A stretch of 64,000 bases of DNA, taken from NCBI RefSeq assembly GCF_900460245.1, contig NZ_UHIP01000001.1, positions 992,001 to 1,056,000 on the forward strand, in the 5' to 3' direction. Within the stretch, counting starts at the first letter, position 1; each line of letters starts with the position of its first letter. This stretch comes from Vibrio fluvialis (lineage in GTDB: Bacteria; Pseudomonadota; Gammaproteobacteria; Enterobacterales; Vibrionaceae). Position numbers and translations under genes: made by a program. The notes beneath the pieces were generated by a model. The model had not been told where the DNA came from. It saw only the letters and a program-made list of their open reading frames with translations, and made no database searches. Below, piece after piece: positions 46,314 to 60,536 of this stretch.

Positions 46314-46332
46314 AATAATGAGAATGAATATC
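46314..46332. promoter_or_regulatory. Fur box upstream of vibB
   Basis: AATAATGAGAATGAATATC matches the 19-bp Fur consensus at 15 positions. It lies 220 bp before the vibB ATG, so the transcript would have a long leader. Confidence 0.7.
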
Positions 46333-46551: not shown

Positions 46552-47439
46552 ATGGCAATCCCAAGAATTGCAGGTTACTCACTGCCTGCCAGCGAACACT
46601 ACCCGCTCAACAAAACTCAGTGGCAGATTGACCCCGCCAAGGCTGTGCTGCTGATCCACGATATGCAGGAATACTTCGTTAACTTCTTTGATACCACTCA
46701 GTCGCCGATGAGCGACATCATCAACAATATTCAACGTTTGAAAGCGGCGGCTAAACAAGCCGGCATTCCGGTGGTGTATACGGCGCAGCCAGCCAATCAA
46801 GATCCTGTAGAGCGTGCGCTGCTGGCCGATTTCTGGGGGCCTGGACTACAAGAAGAAACGGCGATTCTTGCAGCATTAGCGCCAGAAGCAGATGACCTGG
46901 AATACGTGAAATGGCGTTACAGCGCATTTAAGAAGACCTCGCTGCTGGAAGATATGCAGGCGCAGGGTCGAGATCAACTGATCATCTGCGGCGTATACGG
47001 CCACATCGGTATTTTGTCGACTGCGCTCGAAGCGTTCATGCTGGATATCAAACCGTTTGTGATTGGCGATGCGATTGCCGATTTTAGTCAGCAGGATCAC
47101 ATTCATACCCTTAACTATCTGGCAGGTCGCGCTGCAAGTGTGCAGACACTGCACGCGGTGGAGCAGACGCTTGCCCGCAAGCCATCACTGACGCTGGATC
47201 AAATGTGTATCGATGTGGCTGAAGCGCTGTCGCTGGATCTCGATGAAGTCGATGTGAACGAGAACCTGCTGTTCCTCGGCTTGGATTCGATTCGCGCCAT
47301 GGTGCTGCTGGAGAAGTGGCGTCCGTACGGTGTGAATGTGACGTTCGCGCAACTGATTGAGAAAGTGACGTTGCAGGAGTGGTGGATGCTTATCGGTGAA
47401 CCGACCACGCGAACGGAGGCGGAACCTGCCATGGCATAA
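46552..47439 (+). CDS. vibB: VibB/EntB: isochorismatase with aryl carrier domain
   Basis: A 295-residue bifunctional protein. The N-terminal isochorismatase domain (about 1-205; [30 protein letters not shown]) converts isochorismate to 2,3-dihydro-2,3-dihydroxybenzoate. The C-terminal aryl carrier domain (about 215-285) has its phosphopantetheine serine at 246 in [16 protein letters not shown]. VibE should load dihydroxybenzoate there, and VibH would use it. It stands alone as a rightward transcript with a Fur box and structured leader. Confidence 0.95.
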
Positions 47440-47622: not shown

Positions 47623-49242
47623 TTAGCTGTACAGCGCACGCAGTCCTTTTTTGTCGACTTTGCCGACTGACGTTTTCGGCAACACATCGATGAACTGGAT
47701 TTGATCCGGCAGTTTGAAATCCGCTAAGCCTAAATCACGCAGAAAGCGTTTCAGCTCCAATCCTTTGACCTGATGACCTTCGCGCTTGACGATCACTGCG
47801 CAGCTGCGCTCGCCCAAATAATCATCCGGCACCGCCACCAGCGCCGCGTCGTGCACCGCCTCGTGGCGCAGCAGATAGTTTTCAATCTCTTCCGCCGCGA
47901 TTTTTTCGCCGCCACGGTTAATCTGATCTTTGTCGCGGCCAGTCACAATGATGTTGCCTTCCGCAGTACGTTTGACCAGATCGCCAGTGCGATAAAAGCC
48001 ATCTGGGGTAAACGAACGCTCGTTGTGCGCTGGCGCGCGATAATAACCGCGAATAGTGTACGGCCCTTGCGTGAGCAGAAATCCCTCTTCACCGATGGCG
48101 ACATCGTTCCCGTCCTCATCGACCACGCGCACTTGATCGTGCGGTGAAATCGGGCGGCCTTGGGTGCTTGCAATCACCTCATCACTGTCGTCAAACCGAG
48201 TGTAGTTCACCAACCCTTCGGCCATACCAAACACCTGTTGCAGGCGGCAGTGAAGCCGGCTTGGCAGTTCCCGCGCCGCGGTTTCGCTAAACTTAGCGCC
48301 GCCAACCAACAGCAGTTCCAAGCTGGAAATGTCGTGTGTGGCCTTCTCGGCGTAATCCATCCACAGCAGTGCCAGTGGCGGCACCAGCGCAGACACGGTG
48401 ACACGGTGACGCTCAATCATTTCAAACGCATGTTGTGGCGTTGGATCTTGGGTAGGAATCACGCAGCCTCCCGCCCAGAATACGCCCAAAGCGCCCGGAG
48501 AGCTGAGCGGAAAGTTATGCGCGACCGGCAGCGCACACAAAAAGCGCGTCGTATGGTCGAAACGACAAATCTCCACACTGCCGGTAACACTGTAGGCGTA
48601 ATCGTTGTGCGTGCGCGGAATCAGTTTCGGCGTGCCTGTGGTGCCACCCGACAGCTGGAAAAACGCAACATCACTGGCGTCGGCATCCTGCTCTTGCAGC
48701 GCAGGTTGACGGCATTCATCAAGCGCCACGAACCGGTGGTCGTCCACCGTGACTTGGCCGCGAACAATCACATGCTCAATGGTCGGGCACTGTGCCACGA
48801 TGTCGTTTGCCAATGCCTGATAATTGAAGCTGCTCGCCTCGCCATCAATCAGATACGCTTTGGCATCGGCGTGCTGACAGAAGTAGCTGATTTCCATTTG
48901 GCGATGCGCGGGCAGCGCAAGCACCGGGCGCACGCCAATTTGCAGCAGGGCGAAGAAGCACTGATAAAACTCGGCAATATTGGTCATTTGCAACACGACG
49001 TTGTCGCCGCGCTGCAAACCGAGCTGACGAAATGCCGCTGCCAGTTGTGCCGCGCTGTTGACCAGTTCGCGATAGCTGATCGCGCGTTGGCCACACACAA
49101 TGGCCTCGCGCTGTGCAAACTTGGCTTCGGTTTCCAGCAGGTAATCCAACAGCGTTTTATCTTGCCAATAACCCAGCGTGCGGTAATGGTCGGCCAGCTC
49201 CTGCGGCCAAGGGGTGTAATCTAATTCTCGTTGTGCGTTCAT
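47623..49242 (-). CDS. vibE: VibE/EntE: 2,3-dihydroxybenzoate-AMP ligase
   Basis: A 539-residue stand-alone adenylation enzyme. Core motifs are FFQLSGGTTGTPKLIPRTHN (A3), VFGMAEGLVNYTR (A5), FYRTGDLVKRTAEGNIIVTG (A7) and a final KTSVGKVDKKGL with the catalytic lysine. It activates 2,3-dihydroxybenzoate and loads it on VibB. It lies 8 bases downstream of vibC on the same strand, and the pair starts from the Fur-box region at 50580. Confidence 0.95.
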   Translation of the reverse strand: MNAQRELDYTPWPQELADHYRTLGYWQDKTLLDYLLETEAKFAQREAIVCGQRAISYRELVNSAAQLAAAFRQLGLQRGDNVVLQMTNIAEFYQCFFALLQIGVRPVLALPAHRQMEISYFCQHADAKAYLIDGEASSFNYQALANDIVAQCPTIEHVIVRGQVTVDDHRFVALDECRQPALQEQDADASDVAFFQLSGGTTGTPKLIPRTHNDYAYSVTGSVEICRFDHTTRFLCALPVAHNFPLSSPGALGVFWAGGCVIPTQDPTPQHAFEMIERHRVTVSALVPPLALLWMDYAEKATHDISSLELLLVGGAKFSETAARELPSRLHCRLQQVFGMAEGLVNYTRFDDSDEVIASTQGRPISPHDQVRVVDEDGNDVAIGEEGFLLTQGPYTIRGYYRAPAHNERSFTPDGFYRTGDLVKRTAEGNIIVTGRDKDQINRGGEKIAAEEIENYLLRHEAVHDAALVAVPDDYLGERSCAVIVKREGHQVKGLELKRFLRDLGLADFKLPDQIQFIDVLPKTSVGKVDKKGLRALYS

Positions 49243-49250
49243 GGGGCGTC

Positions 49251-50435
49251 CTAGGCGGTGAGGAGTTCGTTCAGCTGAATGCCAGCGGCGGATAAAATGG
49301 TGCCCATCTTGGCGCCGGTTTCATCCAGTTCACTTTGCGGTACAGATTCGTGGACGATGCCCGCACCGGCGTACACCTTCATTTGGCGTTTTTGCACTTC
49401 GGCGCAGCGGATGGTCACTACCCATTCGCCGTTTCCACGCGAATCGCACCAGCCCACCATGCCGGTGAAATAACCGCGATCAAACTGTTCAATGTTGCGA
49501 ATCGCTTCATAGGCATTGGCGCGCGGATAGCCGCATACCGCCGGCGTCGGGTGTAAATCGGCCGCAATCTTCAGCACATTGAGGTTGGCGTCGTTCGCCT
49601 GGCCCTCAAGCAGCGTTGACAGATGCAGCATGGTTTGGGTTTCGATCACCGACGGAATCATCGGCGCATACAGGTTGTGGCAGTACTGACTCAGCACGCG
49701 TTCCACTTCTTCCACCACCAAGCCGTGCTCGTGCAAATCTTTTTGCGTGTTGAGCAGCGACAGGCGTGAATCGTCGTTTTGTACCTCATTGGCTGAGCGC
49801 GGACGTGAGCCAGCCAACGGGTTCGACACCACGTAACTGCCTTTTTTCGCCACCAGCAGTTCAGGGCTTGCACCCATCAGCTTCACGCCCGGCAAGGTGT
49901 CGGCGGCAAAGGTGTAGCCTTTGGCATTGATCGCAAGCAAGTTGCGCAGCAGGCCCGGCAGGTGAATGTCGGTGTCGGTTTCCACTTCCACCGCACGTGA
50001 TAGCACCGCTTTGGCGAGGTTAGTGGTGGCGAACAGATTGAGCAAATCGCTCACGCCTTGGCGGTAATGTTGTCCAGATGGGGAGGAAATCACCTTGGCC
50101 TGCGCCGCTTGGTTGGCCGCCGTGTTGGCGGAGCCGCGTGTGCTGCTGGAGACAAACAGCTGCTGCGGAATCACAAATCGGGTCGGATTTTCTTCGCGAA
50201 ATGGCACGATGCCAAACAGCACCGGGTTATCCGATTCGTGCTGTTTTGCGGCTTGCAGCATGGTTTGCGCTTGCTCTGCCAACTGAGCAAAGGGTATAGG
50301 CTGGTGGATTTCTTGCTCGATGCCGATACCCAGCATCGTATTATTAGGAGAAGCGAAGAAAAACGGCGCGCGTTCAAGCTGATCGCTCAGCAGTTCGCTC
50401 TCCATTTTTGTATAGCCAATCACTTCACGTTGCAT
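49251..50435 (-). CDS. vibC: VibC/EntC: isochorismate synthase
   Basis: A 394-residue chorismate-utilising enzyme with the C-terminal signatures [37 protein letters not shown] and [19 protein letters not shown]. It converts chorismate to isochorismate, the first committed step to 2,3-dihydroxybenzoate. First gene of the leftward vibC-vibE pair and divergent from vibA. Confidence 0.94.
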
Positions 50436-50712: not shown

Positions 50713-51498
50713 ATGGATTTGTCATTAAATGAGCAAATGGTATTGGTTACCGGAGCCGCGAGAGGGATTGGTTTAAGTGTTGTAGAACATTTGCTGGCGC
50801 AAAACGCGCGCGTGGTGGCCACCGATGTGCGTATCGAAACCCTGTTGAGTCACACCGAACTGTTGCGTGCCCGGTATGGGGAAAAACTGCAATGTGCCGA
50901 GCTGGATGTGACCCAGACGGATAAAACGGCGGCCGTCATTGGGGCGCTGCAGCAGCAACACGGTCCGATCGATCATTTGGTCAGTTGTGCGGGTATTTTG
51001 CATTTGGGCGCCATCAACGACATGCCGTATGCTCAGGTGCATGAGACGTTTATGGTCAACACCTTTGGTATTCTGAGTGTGATGCAGGCGCTCAGCCCGT
51101 CGATGAAAGCGGCCAAACGCGGTGCGATGGTGGTCATCGGTTCTAACGCGGCCAACACGCCGCGCCCGAATATGGGGGCGTATGGGGCGTCGAAATCGGC
51201 GCTGCACATGCTGGTGAAGTGCATGGGCATCGAGCTGGCGCCGTTTGGTGTGCGGTGCAACATTGTCAGCCCGGGCTCCACACGGACCGATATGCAAATG
51301 CAGTTGTGGAACGAACATTATGGCGAAGCCAATGCCATCGCCGGAGATGCGGGTAGTTATCGCCTCGGAATCCCGCTGCAGAAAATCGCAGAGCCGGCGG
51401 ACATTGCCAAAACCATTCTGTTTCTGCTGTCGGATGCGGCCAATCACATCACCATGCACGATTTGCGCGTTGACGGAGGCGCGACGCTCGACAACTGA
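50713..51498 (+). CDS. vibA: VibA/EntA: 2,3-dihydro-2,3-dihydroxybenzoate dehydrogenase
   Basis: A 261-residue short-chain dehydrogenase. It has the NAD-binding VTGAARGIGLSVVEHLL, SCAGILHLGAI, catalytic YGASKSALHMLVK with Ser/Tyr/Lys, and a C-terminal HDLRVDGGATL. In a locus with vibB, vibC and vibE it is the last step to 2,3-dihydroxybenzoate. Monocistronic, divergent from vibC and followed by its own terminator. Confidence 0.94.
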   Translation: MDLSLNEQMVLVTGAARGIGLSVVEHLLAQNARVVATDVRIETLLSHTELLRARYGEKLQCAELDVTQTDKTAAVIGALQQQHGPIDHLVSCAGILHLGAINDMPYAQVHETFMVNTFGILSVMQALSPSMKAAKRGAMVVIGSNAANTPRPNMGAYGASKSALHMLVKCMGIELAPFGVRCNIVSPGSTRTDMQMQLWNEHYGEANAIAGDAGSYRLGIPLQKIAEPADIAKTILFLLSDAANHITMHDLRVDGGATLDN

Positions 51499-51582: not shown

Positions 51583-52653
51583 TCAGGCGACGGTGGAATA
51601 GCGTTGCGAGAGCACGCCATTCATTGCTTCCGCCAGCGTATCCAACAGTTTAACTGTGTTGTCCCAACTCAGGCATTCGTCGGTAATCGATAGCCCCGGC
51701 TCCAAGTCCCCGTTCCCCAGGCTCTGATTGCCCTGTTTGAGAAAACTTTCGCACATCACGCCAGCAATGCAGGTTTCGCCCGCCAGCAACTGCTGCGCGA
51801 TATCTTGCGCTACGCCGAGTTGATTGTGTGCTTTCTTCAGGCTGTTGCCGTGGCTGCAATCAATGATCAAGCGCGGATTGAGGCCGCTTTCCTCCAACTG
51901 TTTCGACACCGACACCACATCATCGCTGTGATAATTGGGTACTTTGCCGCCGCGCAAAATCACGTGTCCGTGCGGGTTACCGTGTGTCATCACCAAGGCG
52001 GGGGCGCCTTGAGTGCCCGGTACGCTCATCACGTGCTCGGCCTGCGCAGCGTGAATCGCATCAATCGCGATGGACACGTTGCCATCGGTGCCGTTTTTAA
52101 ACCCGATCGGGCAGGGCAGTGCGGACGCCATTTGGCGGTGAATTTGTGACTCGGTGGTTCGCGCGCCGATTGCGCCCCAGCAAATCAGATCACTGATGTA
52201 CGGATAAACGGTGGTGTCGAGAAATTCGGTGGCCGTCGCCAGCCCTAAATCGGTCACGTCACGCAAAAACATGCGGGCAACACTCAGACCTTTCGCCATG
52301 TTGTGCGCGCCATCGAGGTCGGGGTCGACAATCAAGCCTTTCCAGCCGGTGCGTGTACGCGGCTTTTCAAAATAGGTGCGCATCACAATCAGCAGTTGGT
52401 CGGCGTAATCGGCTTGTACCGCGGCGAGTTTACGTGCGTATTCAAGCCCTTGCTTCGGATCGTGAATCGAACATGGTCCGACAATCACCAGCAGGCGCGG
52501 GTCCTGGCCCTCCAGAATGGCGGCGATCGCTTGGCGGCGCTGGGTAATCAGGGCTTGCTGGGTGGCACTGGTGGGAATTGATCCAAGCAGTGTTTCGACA
52601 AACGGCAGTTGGCCGACAGTGGTTGAGCGTATGACGTTGTTAAGGATTTGCAT
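51583..52653 (-). CDS. aroG: DAHP synthase (AroG type) within the siderophore locus
   Basis: A 356-residue class I 3-deoxy-D-arabino-heptulosonate-7-phosphate synthase with signatures LLVIVGPCSIHDPKQGLEYA, RTYFEKPRTRTGWKGLI, GARTTESQIHR and IIDCSHGNSLK. It makes the first shikimate-pathway intermediate and so raises chorismate supply. Dedicated DAHP synthases occur in other Vibrio catechol clusters (vabG of vanchrobactin). A Fur box 55 bp upstream indicates induction with the siderophore genes. Confidence 0.93.
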   Translation of the reverse strand: MQILNNVIRSTTVGQLPFVETLLGSIPTSATQQALITQRRQAIAAILEGQDPRLLVIVGPCSIHDPKQGLEYARKLAAVQADYADQLLIVMRTYFEKPRTRTGWKGLIVDPDLDGAHNMAKGLSVARMFLRDVTDLGLATATEFLDTTVYPYISDLICWGAIGARTTESQIHRQMASALPCPIGFKNGTDGNVSIAIDAIHAAQAEHVMSVPGTQGAPALVMTHGNPHGHVILRGGKVPNYHSDDVVSVSKQLEESGLNPRLIIDCSHGNSLKKAHNQLGVAQDIAQQLLAGETCIAGVMCESFLKQGNQSLGNGDLEPGLSITDECLSWDNTVKLLDTLAEAMNGVLSQRYSTVA

Positions 52654-52707: not shown

Positions 52708-52726
52708 GCAAATGATAATTATTATC
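52708..52726. promoter_or_regulatory. Fur box upstream of aroG
   Basis: GCAAATGATAATTATTATC, 16 of 19 matches to the Fur consensus, 55 bp from the aroG start. Confidence 0.8.
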
Positions 52727-52899: not shown

Positions 52900-52918
52900 G
52901 TAAATGATAATTATTGTC
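52900..52918. promoter_or_regulatory. Fur box upstream of the NRPS gene
   Basis: GTAAATGATAATTATTGTC, 15 of 19 matches to the Fur consensus. With the aroG box it makes the 340-bp divergent region 52654-52995 Fur-controlled on both sides. Apart from these two sites I see nothing else in it. Confidence 0.78.
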
Positions 52919-52995
52919 ATTATGTGTATTTAATTGTAACAATAATGGTGACTAACAAATAATCACAACACAACAAGAGGCGTGTTGAAAACATC

Positions 52996-55900
52996 ATGCA
53001 CGAGATGACAACGTTACAGGCGGCCTATTGGGTAGGCAGGCAATCCACCACACCAAGGGCTGGCGATGCGGCCCATTTGTATATCGAATTTGAAGGGCAG
53101 GGAATCGGTGAAACGCGACTGGCCGCGGCGGTTCACACGCTCTTTGCTCGCCATGAGCTTCTGCGCGTTACGGTCAGCGAGGACGGCCAATGGTCCGTCG
53201 GTGAACTCAACGAATTTCACGCATTGCAGGTGTTGGATTGGCGTGCGCTCGACGCTGCGGATTGCGACGAAAAACTTCGGATCATGCGTGAGCGGAAAAC
53301 CCATCAAAAGCTGGCATTGAATCAAGGGCAAGGCGCAGAGTTTGTTTTAACTCAGTTACCTGACGATCGCTTTCGTTTGCATGTGGATGTCGACATGATT
53401 GCCGCCGATGCGCAAAGTTTTCGTCTGATGATAGAAGCGCTGGTTGCGGCTTATCATGGTGAACTGAGTGATGCCCGCAGCGCGCCATTTGCTGAGTTTC
53501 AACGTCAAATGACGACGGCTGCGCAGCAGGCATTAGCAGCGCGCGATCGCCGTTACTGGCAGGCGCTGCAAAGCACGATTGCGCCTGCGCCCAAGTTGCC
53601 CGAGCGTGATCCCGTTAATCCAGATACGGCTGCTGTGCATACTGAGCGCTTGGCGTTTGAACTGTCGGCTCAGCAGCGCGCGCAACTCGAAGCGTTGGCC
53701 GCCCAACATCACCTCAGCCTGAGCGCTGTGTCGCTCGGTGCGTTCAATGCGCTGTTGGCGGATGCCCTTAAACAGCCAGCGTTTCGTATCAACGTGCCGC
53801 TGTTTTATCGCCCGCAAGGCTTTGACGATACGGTGGGGGATTTTGCTAATTTAACGCTATTTAGCGCTAATTGTGCGCCGAACGTACCACTTTTAACGCT
53901 GTTTGAACAAACCCAACATCAGTTGATGGCGTGCTTGGAGCATCGTCATTACAGCGGCGTTAATGTCATGCGCGATCTGTCGCGCCAGCAGGGTTCCCTG
54001 CAAACCTCGCCAGTGGTGTTCACCTCGGGCTGGGACATCGGCGGCGATCTCTATTCTCAGCGGGTGCACGACACGCTGGGCGACATGGTATGGGCCTGTT
54101 CTCAGGGCGCGCATGTGCTGCTGGACGCGCAGATTGTGCCTTACAAGCGCGGCGTTCTGATCAACTGGGATGTGCGCACGGACAGTGTGCCGCGCGAATT
54201 CTATCAGTCGCTGTTCACCCGTTATGTAGCGCTGTTGAGTGAGTTGGCTGAGCGCGCCGAACGTGTGTTGCAGCCATGCACTATTAAGGCGACAAGTATT
54301 GAGACGACAAATGCGGCCAGCAGCGCGCAACGCCCTCACCAAATACCACTGAACGGATTGCAACAGGCGTATCTGGTTGGGCGCAGTGAGCACTTACCTT
54401 TGGGTGGCGTGGCGATGCAGGATTTTCGTGTTTATCGCGGTACCGTCGACGCTGATCAGCTGCACGCACGGTTGGTGGAACTGGTGGACACACTGCCCGT
54501 GCTGCGCACTCGCATCGACGACACTACGCTCACGCAATGGGTGAGTGATGAGCGAATCCTCAACTGGCAGCATTGCGACCTGCGTGATCGGAGTCGGGCG
54601 CAGGCATTAAGCCAAGCGGAGGCACTGATCGAGCAGGTCTCGCACAGTCGGCATGATTTATCGCGCTCACCGTGGAAAATCTGGTTAGTGTCGCTACCCG
54701 AAGCTGAACCGGACACGCTGGCAACTGACGCTTTTCGCCACATTGTACTCACCAGTTTTGATGCGCTGATTTCCGATGGCCATTCCATTGCCTATCTGTT
54801 GGCTCGCTTGCTGGAAAATCACCCCAAGCACGTCGCCGCGCCCCCTGCGTGGGGTGCCATGAGCGAGGTGTCAGCGAAGCCTCTTTCTCAGCAACACACC
54901 ACTCAACAAAACGTCACTCAGCAGCAAGAAGCCAACGCGCGCGAAACGGCGCAAGCTTACTGGCGCGAAAAGCTGGGCAGTGTGACCGAACCGATGGCGC
55001 TGCCGTGGCAAGCGCCGCTTCATACCCTCTACCAACCGCGTTACGCGCGAGAAAGCGTCACGCTGAGCCGCGACGAAACGCGCGCGCTGCTGAAATTGGC
55101 GGCAAGTGAACGACTGTTTCCGAACAGCGTGTTGACAACGCTGGCCATGCACACCCTCGCGAACTGGTGTCCGGGTACGCCTTTGTGCATCGGTTTGCCG
55201 GTTGCGCCGCCCCCGCAGGCCGGAGAGTTGACCAATCGCTCCAGCTTTATAGCGCTGACCTACGCGTTGGATGAAGCGGACTTCGCTACGCAAGCGCGGC
55301 GTGTGCAACGCGATGTAGCCGAAGGCATGGCGCATCTGGCGTTTTCGGGCATTGAACTTAACCGCCAATTGATGAGCCAGTTACCAGCGCGCACCTTGCC
55401 GCTGCCCGTGGTGATCACCAATGGATTGGGGTGGGAAACGCTGCGAGCCGACAATACGTTGCAGCAGCATGATGGGCTGACCCAAACGCCGCAGATCGCG
55501 CTCGATATTCGCCTTGCTTACGACGCACATAAAAATCTGGTCATCAGCGCCGATTATGTCACGCAAGCGTTGAGTCAGGCGCAGGTGGCCGCGTGGTTGA
55601 CCAGTTGCAAGCGAGCGGCGCTGAGCATGATTGAACGCCAGAGTTTGCAGTGGGTGAGCCGCGAAGCGCTGGATTTAAGCCACTATCACCGCAACACCGA
55701 AGACTCGGATGACGGGACGGCGCCGTTTTTGACCACGCTGGCGGAGCGCCTGTGGGACATGCCGAGTCAGCGCACTGCGCTTTTCTGCGGTGAGCAGCGC
55801 TGGACCTATCAGCAACTGGGAGAGCAGGTCGCTAACATGATGGCCCATCTGCAGGCGCGCGGTGTTGAAGCTGGCGACGTGGTGGCGATTTGCCTGCCTC

Positions 55901-57543
55901 GCAGCGCAGCACATGTCATCGCAACACTGAGCTGCGCGCTGTCGGGCGTTATTTGGGTGCCGATTGATGCCGCCAGTCCGCCGGAGCGCAAAACGTATCT
56001 GCTGTCGCACTGCCAGCCAGCGCTGGTGATTGTGGCCAGCGACGATGTGGAAAATGTTGAACACCCGCATTGTGTCGCGATGCGTGAGCTGCTGCAGCCA
56101 GCGCTCAAAGCGGCGCGCTTACCAAGCCAAGAGGTGCTGCGCGCGCGCAGTCACAGTGAGGCACCCGCTTATTACCTCTATACCTCTGGCACGACGGGGC
56201 AGCCCAAGTGTGTGGTGCTTAACAACCACGCGACCGCCAATGTGCTCCATCACACGTTAGCGACGTGGCAGGTGAATGAGCGTGACGTCATGCTCTCGGT
56301 GACGCCGCAGCATCACGACATGTCGGTGTTTGATCTGCTGGGGTCGTTGTGCGCGGGCGCTGCCTTGGTCATTCCGGAACCTGAGGCCGAAAAGGATGCG
56401 CTGCACTGGAACACCTTGGTCGAGCGGCACTGCGTTACGTTGTGGTGTTCGGTGCCCGCCATTTTGGAGATGCTGCTGGCCTGCCAGTCGACTTCGCAAG
56501 GGCAATCGCTGCGCTTGATTGCGCAGGGCGGCGATTACATCAAACCGCAGACTATTCAGACGCTGCGCGAGCGTCTGCCTAACGCACGCTTGTTCTCGCT
56601 TGGCGGGCCGACGGAAACCACCATCTGGAGCATCTGGCATGAGCTTGAACCTGAGGATGGCGTTGTTATTCCTTACGGCGCGCCGCTACCGGGCACGCAA
56701 TACTACGTGGTGAATGAGCAGCACCAACACTGCCCCCAAGGTGTGGTGGGGCGCATCGTCACGGCGGGCGTGAACCTGTCGCTGGGGTATCTGGTTGATG
56801 GCGAGGTGGTTCAAACCGATTTCATGACCATCGAGACGCCACACGGTGAGCGTGTACGCGCCTTTAAAACTGGTGATCTGGGCTACTATCGCGACGATGG
56901 GCGCCTCATCTTCGCTGGGCGGATTAACGGTTACGTCAAAGTGCGCGGCGTACGCATCTCGCTGCCTGATGTGGAGAAAGTGCTGATGAATGTCGCGAAC
57001 GTGCAAGATTTAGCAGTGATTGATTTTAACGACCCGATCACCGGCGATGTTGGCTTGGCGCTGTTTTATGTCCCGGTTGACGGCGCTGTGAAAAATGCGG
57101 CGCAGTGGCGTGACATCGTAGGGCAGCGGCTGCCCGCATCGCACCTGCCGCAGCGTTTTGTGCCGTTGGAGCGTTTCCCGCTCTCTGCCAATGGGAAGAA
57201 AGACAAACGCGCGCTTTTGGCCATGCTCACGGCAGCGAGTGAATCGCCGCGCAATGCGGCGGCTAGCGTAGAGGCGCCATTCGGTGAGTCTCAAACCACT
57301 TCGCTGACGCCAGAAAAAACGCCGCCTTGGCAATCCATCGTTGATGTCTATCAGCAGGTGTTGGGGGAGCGCGCCGCTTCATTGACGGAACATGCCGAGT
57401 TTATTCAGGCTGGCTTGATGCCATCCCACGTGAAAGCTGTGGCGGAGAAACTCAGTCAAACCTTTGGCAAATCGGTGCAGCCGCGCCAGCTCTTGGGTTG
57501 CAAGAACGCCGGGCAGGTGTCGAAACTGCTCGAACTAAGTTGA
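52996..57543 (+). CDS. nonribosomal peptide synthetase Cy-Cy-A with a degenerate carrier domain
   Basis: 1515 residues. Cy1 (about 1-430) has DMIAADAQS (133-141) and VGDFANLTL; Cy2 (about 445-875) has DALISDGHS (589-597). Both keep the DxxxxD heterocyclisation motif. The adenylation domain (about 905-1410) has LYTSGTTGQPK, GGPTETT (1203), KTGDLGY and NGKKDK. The last ~75 residues align with carrier domains, but the serine position is Pro1476 (AGLMPSH). VibF of V. cholerae is Cy-Cy-A-C-PCP-C and about 900 residues longer. My hand-read pocket D-M-F-C-I-Q-L-I-W is nearer cysteine-type than threonine-type codes. ATG 52996 or 53005 may be the start. Confidence 0.9.
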   Translation: MHEMTTLQAAYWVGRQSTTPRAGDAAHLYIEFEGQGIGETRLAAAVHTLFARHELLRVTVSEDGQWSVGELNEFHALQVLDWRALDAADCDEKLRIMRERKTHQKLALNQGQGAEFVLTQLPDDRFRLHVDVDMIAADAQSFRLMIEALVAAYHGELSDARSAPFAEFQRQMTTAAQQALAARDRRYWQALQSTIAPAPKLPERDPVNPDTAAVHTERLAFELSAQQRAQLEALAAQHHLSLSAVSLGAFNALLADALKQPAFRINVPLFYRPQGFDDTVGDFANLTLFSANCAPNVPLLTLFEQTQHQLMACLEHRHYSGVNVMRDLSRQQGSLQTSPVVFTSGWDIGGDLYSQRVHDTLGDMVWACSQGAHVLLDAQIVPYKRGVLINWDVRTDSVPREFYQSLFTRYVALLSELAERAERVLQPCTIKATSIETTNAASSAQRPHQIPLNGLQQAYLVGRSEHLPLGGVAMQDFRVYRGTVDADQLHARLVELVDTLPVLRTRIDDTTLTQWVSDERILNWQHCDLRDRSRAQALSQAEALIEQVSHSRHDLSRSPWKIWLVSLPEAEPDTLATDAFRHIVLTSFDALISDGHSIAYLLARLLENHPKHVAAPPAWGAMSEVSAKPLSQQHTTQQNVTQQQEANARETAQAYWREKLGSVTEPMALPWQAPLHTLYQPRYARESVTLSRDETRALLKLAASERLFPNSVLTTLAMHTLANWCPGTPLCIGLPVAPPPQAGELTNRSSFIALTYALDEADFATQARRVQRDVAEGMAHLAFSGIELNRQLMSQLPARTLPLPVVITNGLGWETLRADNTLQQHDGLTQTPQIALDIRLAYDAHKNLVISADYVTQALSQAQVAAWLTSCKRAALSMIERQSLQWVSREALDLSHYHRNTEDSDDGTAPFLTTLAERLWDMPSQRTALFCGEQRWTYQQLGEQVANMMAHLQARGVEAGDVVAICLPRSAAHVIATLSCALSGVIWVPIDAASPPERKTYLLSHCQPALVIVASDDVENVEHPHCVAMRELLQPALKAARLPSQEVLRARSHSEAPAYYLYTSGTTGQPKCVVLNNHATANVLHHTLATWQVNERDVMLSVTPQHHDMSVFDLLGSLCAGAALVIPEPEAEKDALHWNTLVERHCVTLWCSVPAILEMLLACQSTSQGQSLRLIAQGGDYIKPQTIQTLRERLPNARLFSLGGPTETTIWSIWHELEPEDGVVIPYGAPLPGTQYYVVNEQHQHCPQGVVGRIVTAGVNLSLGYLVDGEVVQTDFMTIETPHGERVRAFKTGDLGYYRDDGRLIFAGRINGYVKVRGVRISLPDVEKVLMNVANVQDLAVIDFNDPITGDVGLALFYVPVDGAVKNAAQWRDIVGQRLPASHLPQRFVPLERFPLSANGKKDKRALLAMLTAASESPRNAAASVEAPFGESQTTSLTPEKTPPWQSIVDVYQQVLGERAASLTEHAEFIQAGLMPSHVKAVAEKLSQTFGKSVQPRQLLGCKNAGQVSKLLELS

Positions 57544-57676: not shown

Positions 57677-59026
57677 TTAGGCGTGATCAATCGCGTCATA
57701 CAACGCTGAAATGGGTTGGTCGAGGTAGCGCTCGTCCAATACCCGCTGCATGAAGGTCATCACGCGTTGCGCGTGCTGATCAAACTCGTCATGCGGGTGC
57801 GCGGCAGAATCGGCATCCAAGCTCAGCACTAAGCCATCGGCATTGGTCTGCCCACGGAAGGTAAGGTTAAACCCGTCGGCCGGTCCGCTGGTGATGACAT
57901 GATGTTTGACCTGGCAGCCAGCAAATTGCGGCGGATCGAACGGCAGCACGTTGACAAAAGGCGAAAAGAAGTAACGGCTGTTTTCTGTCACGCCTTGATC
58001 GCGGGCGATCTGCTCCACACGATAGCGGCCGCGCGCGTAGAGTTGGCGCAGGGTTTTACCCGTCTGCGTCAGGTAATCACGCAGCGATGTGTTCTCATCC
58101 ACTTGCACATACAACGGCAGAATGTTGACCAGCAGGGCAGGCATGTAAGCGCCCACGCTGCCCCAGCGGCTCATAAACGGGATCCACAACGGCATGGTGT
58201 TGCCTTGGCCCAAGTACGCGTCGGCCAAATAACGATGCATGTAGAGACCTGACAGCGTTACCAATAAATCCGGCCAGCCCATGGTGACTTGGTGCGCCAA
58301 CTGGCGAATGTCGTGGCTCATTGCGGGCGTTAGTTCATGGGCAACATGCAGCGTTTCTTCGCCGTAATCATCCTCCTTGTTGAGGACGGTCAGTTGCGCT
58401 GGGTTCGACAGGTAATCGCGCCAGAACGCTTTGTCTTGCTGATAGCGCACGCTGGCTTGATAGCTCTGCTCTTCATCAAAGAAACTGACGAACGCGTTAA
58501 ACGGTTTGCCCGCATCGGTGCGCTCCAAATAGTGCTGATACAGCGTGGCGCAGCGCTGTTCAAACAGCGTCATGCCAAAGCCATCCATCACGATGTGATG
58601 GGCGCGAATGTACCACAGGTAATGGTTGTCACTCAGTTTGATCAGCCATTGCGCTGACAGCGGATCGCGCAGCAAATTGAGGCGCGCATTCACATCGCCA
58701 TCCATGAGCGCTTTGGCATCCGCCAGTGGCTGCGAACTGCCGCGCAGATCTTTGATCTCCACCTGCGGTCTGCGCGCTGGATCGTGGGCTTGCAACGGTG
58801 TTTTGCCGTCGTCATCGAGTCGAAAACGCAGCGCCAGTACATCGGTTTCTTGCGCGGTTTGCGCAATGGCGCGGCACAGCGCCGCTTCATTCACCGTGCC
58901 TTTGAGTTCAATGTAGTGAGCGACGGTCGAGAGAGGCTCATCCGGGTGAAGGGAAAATTCTTCCCAGAAATCGAGCTGGGGCAGAGTAAGGGGCATCCAA
59001 TGAAGAGCCGAACCAGTAACTGACAT
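57677..59026 (-). CDS. vibH: VibH-like free-standing condensation protein
   Basis: A 449-residue stand-alone condensation domain, close to the 440 residues of V. cholerae VibH, with an intact active site HHIVMDG (His143, His144, Asp148). The N-terminal LTLPQLDFWEEF and the later YMPALLVNILPLYVQV follow condensation-domain landmarks. VibH transfers 2,3-dihydroxybenzoate from VibB to a primary amine of norspermidine, and the same reaction is expected here. It is leftward, with its own Fur box and a leader containing two hairpins. Confidence 0.88.
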   Translation of the reverse strand: MSVTGSALHWMPLTLPQLDFWEEFSLHPDEPLSTVAHYIELKGTVNEAALCRAIAQTAQETDVLALRFRLDDDGKTPLQAHDPARRPQVEIKDLRGSSQPLADAKALMDGDVNARLNLLRDPLSAQWLIKLSDNHYLWYIRAHHIVMDGFGMTLFEQRCATLYQHYLERTDAGKPFNAFVSFFDEEQSYQASVRYQQDKAFWRDYLSNPAQLTVLNKEDDYGEETLHVAHELTPAMSHDIRQLAHQVTMGWPDLLVTLSGLYMHRYLADAYLGQGNTMPLWIPFMSRWGSVGAYMPALLVNILPLYVQVDENTSLRDYLTQTGKTLRQLYARGRYRVEQIARDQGVTENSRYFFSPFVNVLPFDPPQFAGCQVKHHVITSGPADGFNLTFRGQTNADGLVLSLDADSAAHPHDEFDQHAQRVMTFMQRVLDERYLDQPISALYDAIDHA

Positions 59027-59228: not shown

Positions 59229-60536
59229 TCACAGCCCTAAGTGATCGCGAAGTGTGCGCCCTTGGTAGTCGGAACGAAACAGTCCGGCTTGCGATAATCT
59301 TGGTATCAGTTCATCAAAGAACAGATCGACCGATTGCCATGAGCCGCCCGGAACGGCAATAAAACCATCCGCCGCGCCCGCGTTCACGCGTTCTACGATG
59401 GCGTTAAACGCATCATCAACCGTGCCAATCACAATCCAGTGGGCAGACCCAATCACTTCCGGGCGCTCGATCAGCGTGGCCACGGTGGGCGATTCGCGCT
59501 CAATCAAACGACGCAATAAGTTTGAATGGGTTTGGCTGCGTACTTGATACTCTGGGTGGGGCAGCATATCGGCCGTGATGCGCTGCTCAGGGGCGAGCTG
59601 GCTTAGGTCAAGGCCGAGCGCTTCTTTGACGTAGGCAAACTTGCGCTCGCTACCGATATTGGCGTGCGTCTCGCGGTGCAGCGCCTGCGCTTCTTCCCGC
59701 GTGTCGGCCAGATAGAGAGACAACCCCGGCAGCACTTTCACCGCATTGGCGGGGCGACCATGTGCCAACGCGCGGCGACGCAGATCGTTGCGCAGCTCAA
59801 CGCCAGCATCGATATCGGGCGTGGCGGCAAAAATCGCATCGGCGATACTGGCGGCAAATTGGCGTCCGGATTCAGACGCGCCGGCTTGAAATAGCGGTAT
59901 GTCGCCGCCGGGGCGCTTGGGCACATTAAGCGGCCCTTGTACGTCGAAGTAGTCACCGTGATGGGCAATGGGCTGAATCTGGTCAATGTCCGCGTACTGG
60001 CCACTTTGTTTATCGGCTTTGATGGCGCTGCTGGGGTAGCTGTCCCACAGCTTAAGCACCACGTCGGTAAACTCGCGCGCTTTCTGGTAGCGTGCTTCGG
60101 ACGGCAACATGGTCTGCTGGCCAAAGTTCTGCTGGCCGTCAATCGCAGTGACGATGTTCCACCCGGCACGTCCTTGGGTCACCCAGTTGAGCGATTGCAA
60201 CTGACGCGCCACCACATAAGGTGGATTGAAGGTGGTGGAGGCGGTTGAAACCAAACCGATGTGGGTGGTTTCACGTGCCAATGTGGCCAGTAGCACCATG
60301 GGGTCTAAGCTGCTAAAGCCGGGTTCGGTGGCGACAGCGTGTGTCGCGAGAAACAGGGTGTCGGGGCGAAACAGGAAATCCAGTTTGGCGCGTTCGGCGC
60401 GCTGGGCCAGCTCGACATATACATCGGTGTCATACATGCGCTCGACACCGCTGTCGTCGCGGCGCCAGCCGTTCTTGGTGAGCCAACTGATGGCCAAGGC
60501 CATGCCAATGAACAAAGGTTGGGGGGAACTCATCAC
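59229..60536 (-). CDS. luciferase-like FMN-dependent monooxygenase (NtaA/SnaA/DszA family)
   Basis: A 435-residue TIM-barrel flavin monooxygenase of the NtaA/SnaA/DszA group. Landmarks are LAQRAERAKLDFLFRPDT, EPGFSSLDPMVLLATLA, GLVSTASTTFNPPYVVAR, GRAGWNIVT, and FQAGASESGRQFAA. Relatives use FMNH2 from a separate reductase to oxidise aminopolycarboxylates, sulfur heterocycles or thioethers. It lies between vibH and the siderophore uptake operon, but no clear Fur box precedes it. A role in modifying or degrading the siderophore is possible. The upstream stretch 60537-60840 holds no other gene. Confidence 0.85.
   Translation of the reverse strand: MMSSPQPLFIGMALAISWLTKNGWRRDDSGVERMYDTDVYVELAQRAERAKLDFLFRPDTLFLATHAVATEPGFSSLDPMVLLATLARETTHIGLVSTASTTFNPPYVVARQLQSLNWVTQGRAGWNIVTAIDGQQNFGQQTMLPSEARYQKAREFTDVVLKLWDSYPSSAIKADKQSGQYADIDQIQPIAHHGDYFDVQGPLNVPKRPGGDIPLFQAGASESGRQFAASIADAIFAATPDIDAGVELRNDLRRRALAHGRPANAVKVLPGLSLYLADTREEAQALHRETHANIGSERKFAYVKEALGLDLSQLAPEQRITADMLPHPEYQVRSQTHSNLLRRLIERESPTVATLIERPEVIGSAHWIVIGTVDDAFNAIVERVNAGAADGFIAVPGGSWQSVDLFFDELIPRLSQAGLFRSDYQGRTLRDHLGL

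Follow-up and report, generated by a model that had tools for sequence, protein, structure and literature searches.

Relation to described siderophore synthetases

VibF, which makes vibriobactin in Vibrio cholerae, is a textbook synthetase whose first condensation domain (C1) has no catalytic role, and fluvibactin consists of norspermidine bearing two 2,3-dihydroxybenzoate (DHB) amides and one oxazoline. Here we describe a nonribosomal peptide synthetase (NRPS) encoded in a stretch of 64,000 nucleotides from Vibrio fluvialis (hereafter the window; NCBI RefSeq assembly GCF_900460245.1, contig NZ_UHIP01000001.1, positions 992,001 to 1,056,000 of the forward strand), which comprises two cyclisation domains (Cy1 and Cy2), an adenylation (A) domain and a terminal carrier-like domain that lacks the serine modified by phosphopantetheine. 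As far as the available parts of the published account go, the fluvibactin cluster of V. fluvialis has two vibF homologues, vfbF1 and vfbF2, and the open reading frame (ORF) described here (52996-57543) corresponds to vfbF1, a name that we give by this correspondence (PMC13180887). Split genes and loading in trans are already known; what is added here is that the serine-less carrier is conserved in split synthetases of the VibF type and missing from fused ones.

Several described lines load an amino acid on a separate protein, according to the accessible parts of the respective papers. Serratiochelin of Serratia plymuthica is made by a split VibF (SchF1-SchF2-SchF3) with the threonyl group placed on SchF3 (PMC7962358, PMC5635690); in acinetobactin synthesis (BasA/BasB/BasD) threonine is loaded in trans onto the carrier of a separate condensation-domain protein (PMC12005286); and in the anguibactin pair AngR/AngM an inactive carrier follows the A domain while the amino acid is loaded on a separate protein (PMC6836290, PMC5577590). 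VibF shares with VfbF1 the order Cy-Cy-A and eight of the nine specificity residues of the A domain, and its C1-PCP-C2 segment (PCP, peptidyl carrier protein domain) is homologous to VfbF2; unlike the VfbF1/VfbF2 pair, it is a single polypeptide, in which A is joined to C1 with no serine-less carrier intervening. At a locus of S. plymuthica (L035), whose genes we assign to schF1-F3 by species and layout, the Cy2-A protein likewise ends in a serine-less domain (GLKLPHIR) and its partner is C1-PCP-C2, but Cy1 is on a further separate protein and leucine instead of proline occupies the serine column. The acinetobactin line also has tandem Cy domains, but its A domain and Cy-Cy pair are on separate proteins.

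The preliminary description of this DNA had likened VfbF1 to AngR, and the likeness holds for the mode of working but not for the domain itself. Both proteins have the serine of a terminal carrier replaced; in AngR, however, by the available accounts, a near-canonical carrier has Ser changed to Ala, the tandem Cy pair is on the separate protein AngN, and a Cy motif change (first Asp) is reported, whereas both DxxxxD motifs of VfbF1 are intact. The AngR-like proteins of our sample (L111, L113 and L120, so labelled for their length and for an AngN-like gene no more than a few kb away in each of the genomes G040, G087 and G123) read GGDA in 3/3 cases, against GLMPSH in a wholly remodelled motif of VfbF1. 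VfbF1 and VfbF2 thus fit the split VibF line (SchF, VfbF), in which an A-domain protein with a serine-less carrier is paired with a separate C1-PCP-C2 (or half-C1-PCP-C2) protein.

The main text of the fluvibactin paper does not use the word "carrier", and the available parts of that paper do not describe the domains of VfbF1 or the missing serine (PMC13180887). Searches of open-licence papers returned no description of a serine-less carrier as a conserved domain, nothing relevant on inactive or degenerate PCPs or on lost carrier serines in NRPSs, and, on docking or gene fusion in VibF-type lines, only the partly accessible papers on Serratia siderophores (PMC7962358, PMC5635690).

Domain architecture of VfbF1 and its serine-less carrier

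The features of the synthetase gene are as follows, with the basis of each call in brackets:

52996..57543, + strand: VfbF1-like NRPS, Cy1-Cy2-A-serine-less carrier, 1515 aa (ATG start, TGA stop; Pfam; close homologues)
52996..54285, + strand: Cy1, approximately residues 1-430, with DMIAAD at 53392-53409 (Pfam Condensation 6-339)
54349..55650, + strand: second Condensation stretch, borders approximate (Pfam Condensation, DxxxxD motif)
55762..57198, + strand: A domain, residues 923-1401 (Pfam, specificity residues)
57325..57540, + strand: serine-less domain of predicted carrier fold, approximately residues 1444-1515, with the Pro1476 codon at 57421-57423 (Pfam, alignments, AlphaFold2 model)

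Pfam matches to VfbF1 comprised two Condensation stretches, AMP-binding (923-1266), AMP-binding_C (1326-1401) and PP-binding (1447-1512), and HMWP2 chain 7ry6 aligned to residues 4-420 in the Cy1 region. Both DxxxxD motifs are unbroken (D133-MIAA-D138 and D589-ALIS-D594), so that the Cy-Cy-A order with intact motifs given in the preliminary description is confirmed by Pfam and motif positions. The specificity residues read DMFCIQLIW in VfbF1 and DMFVIQLIW in VibF; threonine is the probable substrate of the A domain, judged by its sequence. The ORF stops after the carrier-like domain, and C1-PCP-C2 is not part of the polypeptide. The best 110 protein matches listed for VfbF1 share 95-98% identity with it, and all named species among them are V. 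fluvialis with the single exception of Vibrio sp. LQ2. The stop looks real because these first 110 listed homologues have matching lengths (1510-1535 aa); a sequencing error at the stop, and with it a functional carrier hidden by such an error, was dropped from consideration, since close homologues end at the same place.

It had been proposed to compare the terminal domain with PCP models, and this gave a PP-binding score of 16.2 bits in whole VfbF1, under the curated cut-off of 20.8, and of 22.9 bits, over it, when the domain was scanned alone. Profile-profile comparison with PCPs of partner proteins and with aryl carriers aligned Pro1476 to the serine, without gaps between the motif glycine and the Pro1476 column, and a MAFFT alignment with five canonical PCPs gave the same placement. 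The phosphopantetheine serine of carriers stands at the start of helix 2, and in the AlphaFold2 model of the terminal domain (pLDDT 86.7) helix 2 begins at Pro1476. By this model the domain has the four-helix carrier fold of a PCP, with Pro1476 instead of the serine at the start of helix 2, and the carrier motif is remodelled throughout (GLxPxHLK ... CKN).

Conservation and selection among split homologues

The sample was collected by a genome scan, Vibrio surveys and two protein searches and held 309 sequences (240 proteins and 69 loci), among which one gene may recur, VfbF1 of the window included; distinct tails are therefore a better measure than sequences. In 306/309 it could be established where the A domain ends (dropped: P0115, whose A domain is truncated; P0175, as weak; and a third sequence, in which no A domain could be aligned). 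Soon after the A domain 299/306 sequences end (split), and 7/306 continue (fused). A split assembly line is accordingly the rule, not untypical as had been supposed; the split in V. fluvialis is itself published, in the parts of PMC13180887 that are available, and the serratiochelin, acinetobactin and anguibactin lines are likewise described as loading a separate protein.

The serine-less carrier domain was present in 299/299 split sequences, equal to 207/207 distinct tails. The serine column of these tails held Pro (187), Leu (15), Ala (3), Phe (1) and Ser (1), and several residues are near-invariant (Gly1473 in 207, Leu1474 in 205, His1478, two residues beyond the serine column, in 204, Cys1502 in 201; Leu1499 also belongs to this set). 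The missing serine is not a matter of chance, as 206 of the 207 distinct tails have none in that column; together with the profile-profile and MAFFT alignments and the AlphaFold2 model, this bears out the earlier placement of Pro1476 at the phosphopantetheine serine. The sample leans to a V. fluvialis-like group, since 60/207 distinct tails read GLMPSH; the serine-less signature was kept in 48 members picked across alpha- and gammaproteobacteria, 45 of which match PF00550 at E up to 10. The idea that the domain is a decayed aryl carrier instead of a peptidyl carrier was dropped, as 20/48 of these members score higher with the aryl-carrier profile and there was no separation.

The ratio of nonsynonymous to synonymous substitution rates (dN/dS) of the domain was computable in 14/16 species pairs and amounted to 0.03-0.25 in 13 pairs and 0.98 in one (dS 0.02); values for the A domain were 0.03-0.19 and for the linker between A domain and carrier 0.10-0.86 (14 pairs each). 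The dN/dS of the linker was above that of the domain in 9/13 pairs having both values, and its dN was higher in 14/15 pairs. These low ratios show that the domain is kept by selection despite having no serine to modify. By these sequence comparisons, split VibF-type synthetases have the serine-less carrier as a conserved domain under purifying selection.

A survey of Vibrio genomes at E 1e-120 gave matches in 23/227, in 17 of which (the window's own included) F1 is in one ORF; in one (G010:C2:1528785-1533285) F1 is read as two adjacent ORFs, and in the other five an AngN-like Cy-Cy protein was the sole match at this threshold. The most divergent Vibrio F1 (L146, genome G214) has a long branch, a Cy1 motif reading EMLAVD and a terminal GVQANDL without the conserved His.

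Fused enzymes and the Cy2-A tree

The split form is the common layout and fused VibF the exception. The seven fused forms (P0125, P0123, L059, P0121, P0122, P0171 and P0124; five left after thinning) all lack the serine-less carrier domain. In VibF, the A domain is followed by a short linker and C1, with no carrier in between; in the Paracoccus-type forms P0121, P0122 and P0124, it is followed by an intact GGHSL carrier and then directly by C2, without C1; and in the frameshifted P0171 an intact GGHSL carrier likewise comes next, the serine-less domain being absent. The best 120 matches of a further search for fused forms, made with VibF, comprised general NRPSs, the V. cholerae cluster and, once more, P0121 and P0124.

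A tree was built from Cy2-A only, so that the columns of the trait itself are excluded, and a second tree was built using FastTree (99 sequences). On the Cy2-A tree, well-supported branches require at least four changes between the fused and split states. VibF is sister to a split Vibrio F1 (100/99), in which the F1 and F2 genes adjoin, within a clade otherwise split (100/100), and a fused pair of P. denitrificans is sister to the split P0126 (97/96); both placements were unchanged in the FastTree tree. Shuffling of labels gave no clustering of the fused state (91/500 shuffles as low). Loss of the domain on fusion is simpler than gain because VibF is nested among split enzymes, although the tree alone cannot separate gain from loss.

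The detached half, VfbF2

The C-PCP-C half that had been reported as absent is indeed lacking from the VfbF1 ORF, but the genome has it as vfbF2, and the proposed genome search for such a protein found it just beyond the window (L017:3642-6572, equal to genome C1:1058641-1061571, that is, window position 66641 onwards; start codon inferred). The start of vfbF2 lies about 9 kb downstream of vfbF1 and 2.6 kb beyond the window end. The genome profile search gave eight carrier matches (seven over the cut-off) and four condensation matches, of which two are in VfbF1, one in a VfbH-like gene (57677-59026) and one in vfbF2. VfbF2 (976 aa) is C1-PCP-C2, with two Pfam condensation stretches and PP-binding at 443-509; its motifs read RHHRILAHN in C1 (broken), FDFGGHSL in the PCP (serine intact) and LFHHVVLDEW in C2 (intact). 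A phosphopantetheinyl transferase gene lies downstream (L017:7393-8118). Given this C1-PCP-C2 layout with an intact carrier, threonine would most simply be loaded in trans on VfbF2, as is expected in V. fluvialis by analogy with the described lines, and the suggestion that the carrier for the activated amino acid is encoded elsewhere agrees with the intact PCP found there.

F2 was found in 17/17 Vibrio genomes searched (a set that includes G010 and does not include G000, the genome of the window) and in 22/24 genomes or records searched (L031 not among them), the misses being a 51-kb Agrobacterium plasmid record and the draft Telmatospirillum genome G227. The C1 motif is not broken everywhere: in the F2 proteins of L028, L030 and L047 HHxxxD is retained and Gly is absent. 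F2 is read as two adjacent ORFs at G165:C1:150863-153732, and an F2 homologue of 1163 aa (L082:17955-21443) has two carrier domains, apparently in tandem, ahead of C2.

A stand-alone carrier (L017:3371-3649, about 66370-66648) with an intact serine (GLHSLL) scores 31 bits against PF00550, and its gene runs into the start of vfbF2; it is possibly an extra aryl carrier, and by position it corresponds to one of two extra genes co-transcribed with vfbF2 in the available parts of PMC13180887. Short carriers directly upstream of F2 also occur in L019, L020, L021, L026 and L027, some loci ending before F2, and stand-alone carriers occur elsewhere in the locus in L023, L034, L039 and L053. A conjugative Escherichia coli plasmid (L014; NZ_CP146684.1, 36299-70690) carries F1, complete with its serine-less carrier, together with F2, a stand-alone condensation gene, a receptor and a transporter; no DHB genes are listed in this stretch, whose gene table is incomplete, and the system may therefore use chromosomal enterobactin precursors.

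Proposed role of the serine-less carrier

On balance, we regard it as probable that VfbF1 is the first half of a two-protein VibF-type fluvibactin synthetase in which the serine-less carrier acts as a non-catalytic docking element for VfbF2. The proposal draws on architecture, missing serine, conservation, purifying selection, partner gene and absence in fused forms, as read from sequence, and on the modelled carrier fold; from these we infer the docking and its partner surface. In the proposed scheme, VfbE would charge VfbB with 2,3-DHB, Cy2 of VfbF1 would condense and Cy1 cyclise to give the methyl-oxazoline, and C2 of VfbF2 would hand this intermediate to the DHB-polyamine supplied by VfbH. 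The C-terminal domain of VfbF1 would bear no substrate; its part would be to draw the separate VfbF2 protein close to the A and Cy domains, and its likeliest contact would be the N-lobe of the inactive C1 with which VfbF2 begins. Docking would best explain why the domain is conserved in split synthetases and missing from fused ones.

Several observations weigh against this proposal. The conserved His is missing from three of the 207 tails (P0164, L146 and L047), P0016, from one V. fluvialis cluster, has the only Ser in the serine column (GLMSSH; Ser-Ser; 1/207), and the dN/dS of the linker does not exceed that of the domain in 4/13 pairs. The draft genome G227 has a split F1, yet no F2 was found there at E 1e-40, its condensation matches being F1 plus one short ORF only, and the open frame of F2 in the Paracoccus metagenome-assembled genome L032 (16968-19322) begins inside the C1 N-lobe, so that just the second half of this lobe is encoded. 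By the available accounts, the anguibactin line achieves trans-loading with a different inactive carrier. The absence of the domain from fused forms, over four events, is suggestive and not significant (sign test on four independent fusions, p 0.125). Recombination between two homologous carriers could be a mechanical cause of loss on fusion, which fits the Paracoccus forms but fails for VibF because C1 stays there.

The domain might instead act in cis, with the partner unbound, either shaping or gating VfbF1 (A-domain cycling, Cy access, dimer contact) or filling the path of the carrier, which would leave the true PCP of VfbF2 as the one in use. It occupies the place of a cis carrier and is predicted to fold like one, and the A domain next to it shows similar conservation. 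Yet VibF, which branches within the split enzymes, has A and Cy domains of the same kinds and lacks the terminal domain altogether, and the chemistry therefore does not need the domain in cis. We consider this reading unlikely, though it is the foremost of the alternatives. Rather more doubtful is docking to another partner, which could be VfbH, the aryl carrier VfbB or the stand-alone carrier encoded just before vfbF2. The conserved polar residues His1478, Lys1480, Cys1502 and Asn1504 suggest some partner and the stand-alone carrier gene adjoins vfbF2, but a short carrier right before F2 occurs in few loci (six, L017 included) whereas the domain is in all split F1, and vibriobactin, by the parts of the literature available, is made using VibB and VibH without such a domain.

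That the domain is a decaying, roleless remnant of a former carrier, as the lost serine and the weak Pfam score in the whole protein might suggest, is very improbable in view of dN/dS far under 1 in 13/14 pairs, the near-invariant G1473, L1474, H1478, L1499 and C1502, and its presence in every split homologue located. A working carrier modified at Ser1477 or another residue is hardly credible: a serine does follow Pro1476 in VfbF1 and P0016 has Ser-Ser, but the 1477 column holds Ser in only 134 of the 207 tails (Gln 44, Pro 15, plus others) and the profile alignments place Pro on the serine position.

Returning to docking between VfbF1 and VfbF2, a more specific form of it is tentative and falls somewhat short of probable. 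The dead carrier at the end of F1 and the dead C1 N-lobe at the start of F2 may form a matched docking pair that became dispensable and was dismantled on fusion, with the carrier lost in VibF and carrier plus C1 lost in the Paracoccus types; VibF would then be a derived fusion rather than the model form, and its C1 a leftover put to a second use, dimerisation. Should the split form, dead carrier included, be both ancestral and common, an explanation is offered for C1, and the pair would be a natural docking device assembled out of standard NRPS components, which could help to rejoin assembly lines. For annotation, a carrier-like match behind an A domain can be inactive by design, and the true carrier should be sought in a partner gene.

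The gene cluster around vfbF1

The order of genes around vfbF1 matches the fluvibactin cluster as given in the available parts of PMC13180887, with which it also shares extra genes between vfbF2 and vfuG, between vfuP and vfbH, and between vfbF1 and vfbA. The neighbouring features are as follows, those resting on the published cluster being limited to its available parts:

46552..47439, + strand: VfbB-like isochorismatase-aryl carrier protein, GLDSI (Pfam, profile alignment)
47623..49242, - strand: VfbE-like 2,3-DHB adenylation enzyme (AMP-binding domains; role assigned by matching to the published cluster)
49251..50435, - strand: VfbC-like isochorismate synthase (Pfam chorismate binding enzyme)
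50713..51498, + strand: VfbA-like short-chain dehydrogenase/reductase, 2,3-dihydro-2,3-DHB dehydrogenase (Pfam)
51583..52653, - strand: 3-deoxy-D-arabino-heptulosonate 7-phosphate synthase (Pfam; the published cluster has an extra gene between vfbF1 and vfbA, PMC13180887)
52708..52726, + strand: Fur-box-like sequence upstream of vfbF1, 16/19 to consensus (consensus match)
52900..52924, + strand: overlapping Fur-box-like sequences upstream of vfbF1, 15-16/19 (consensus match)
57677..59026, - strand: VfbH-like stand-alone condensation domain, amide synthase (Pfam)
59229-60536, - strand: luciferase-like monooxygenase between vfbH and the uptake genes (Pfam; an additional gene also occupies this place in the published cluster, PMC13180887)
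60824..63866, + strand: periplasmic binding protein and two permease-like ORFs, vfuP, D and G by order (Pfam on the first ORF, PMC13180887)

The Fur-box-like sequences at 52708..52726 and 52900..52924 were scored against the Fur-box consensus. The 16 such matches listed in the window (15 or 16 of 19) all lie at position 46314 or beyond.
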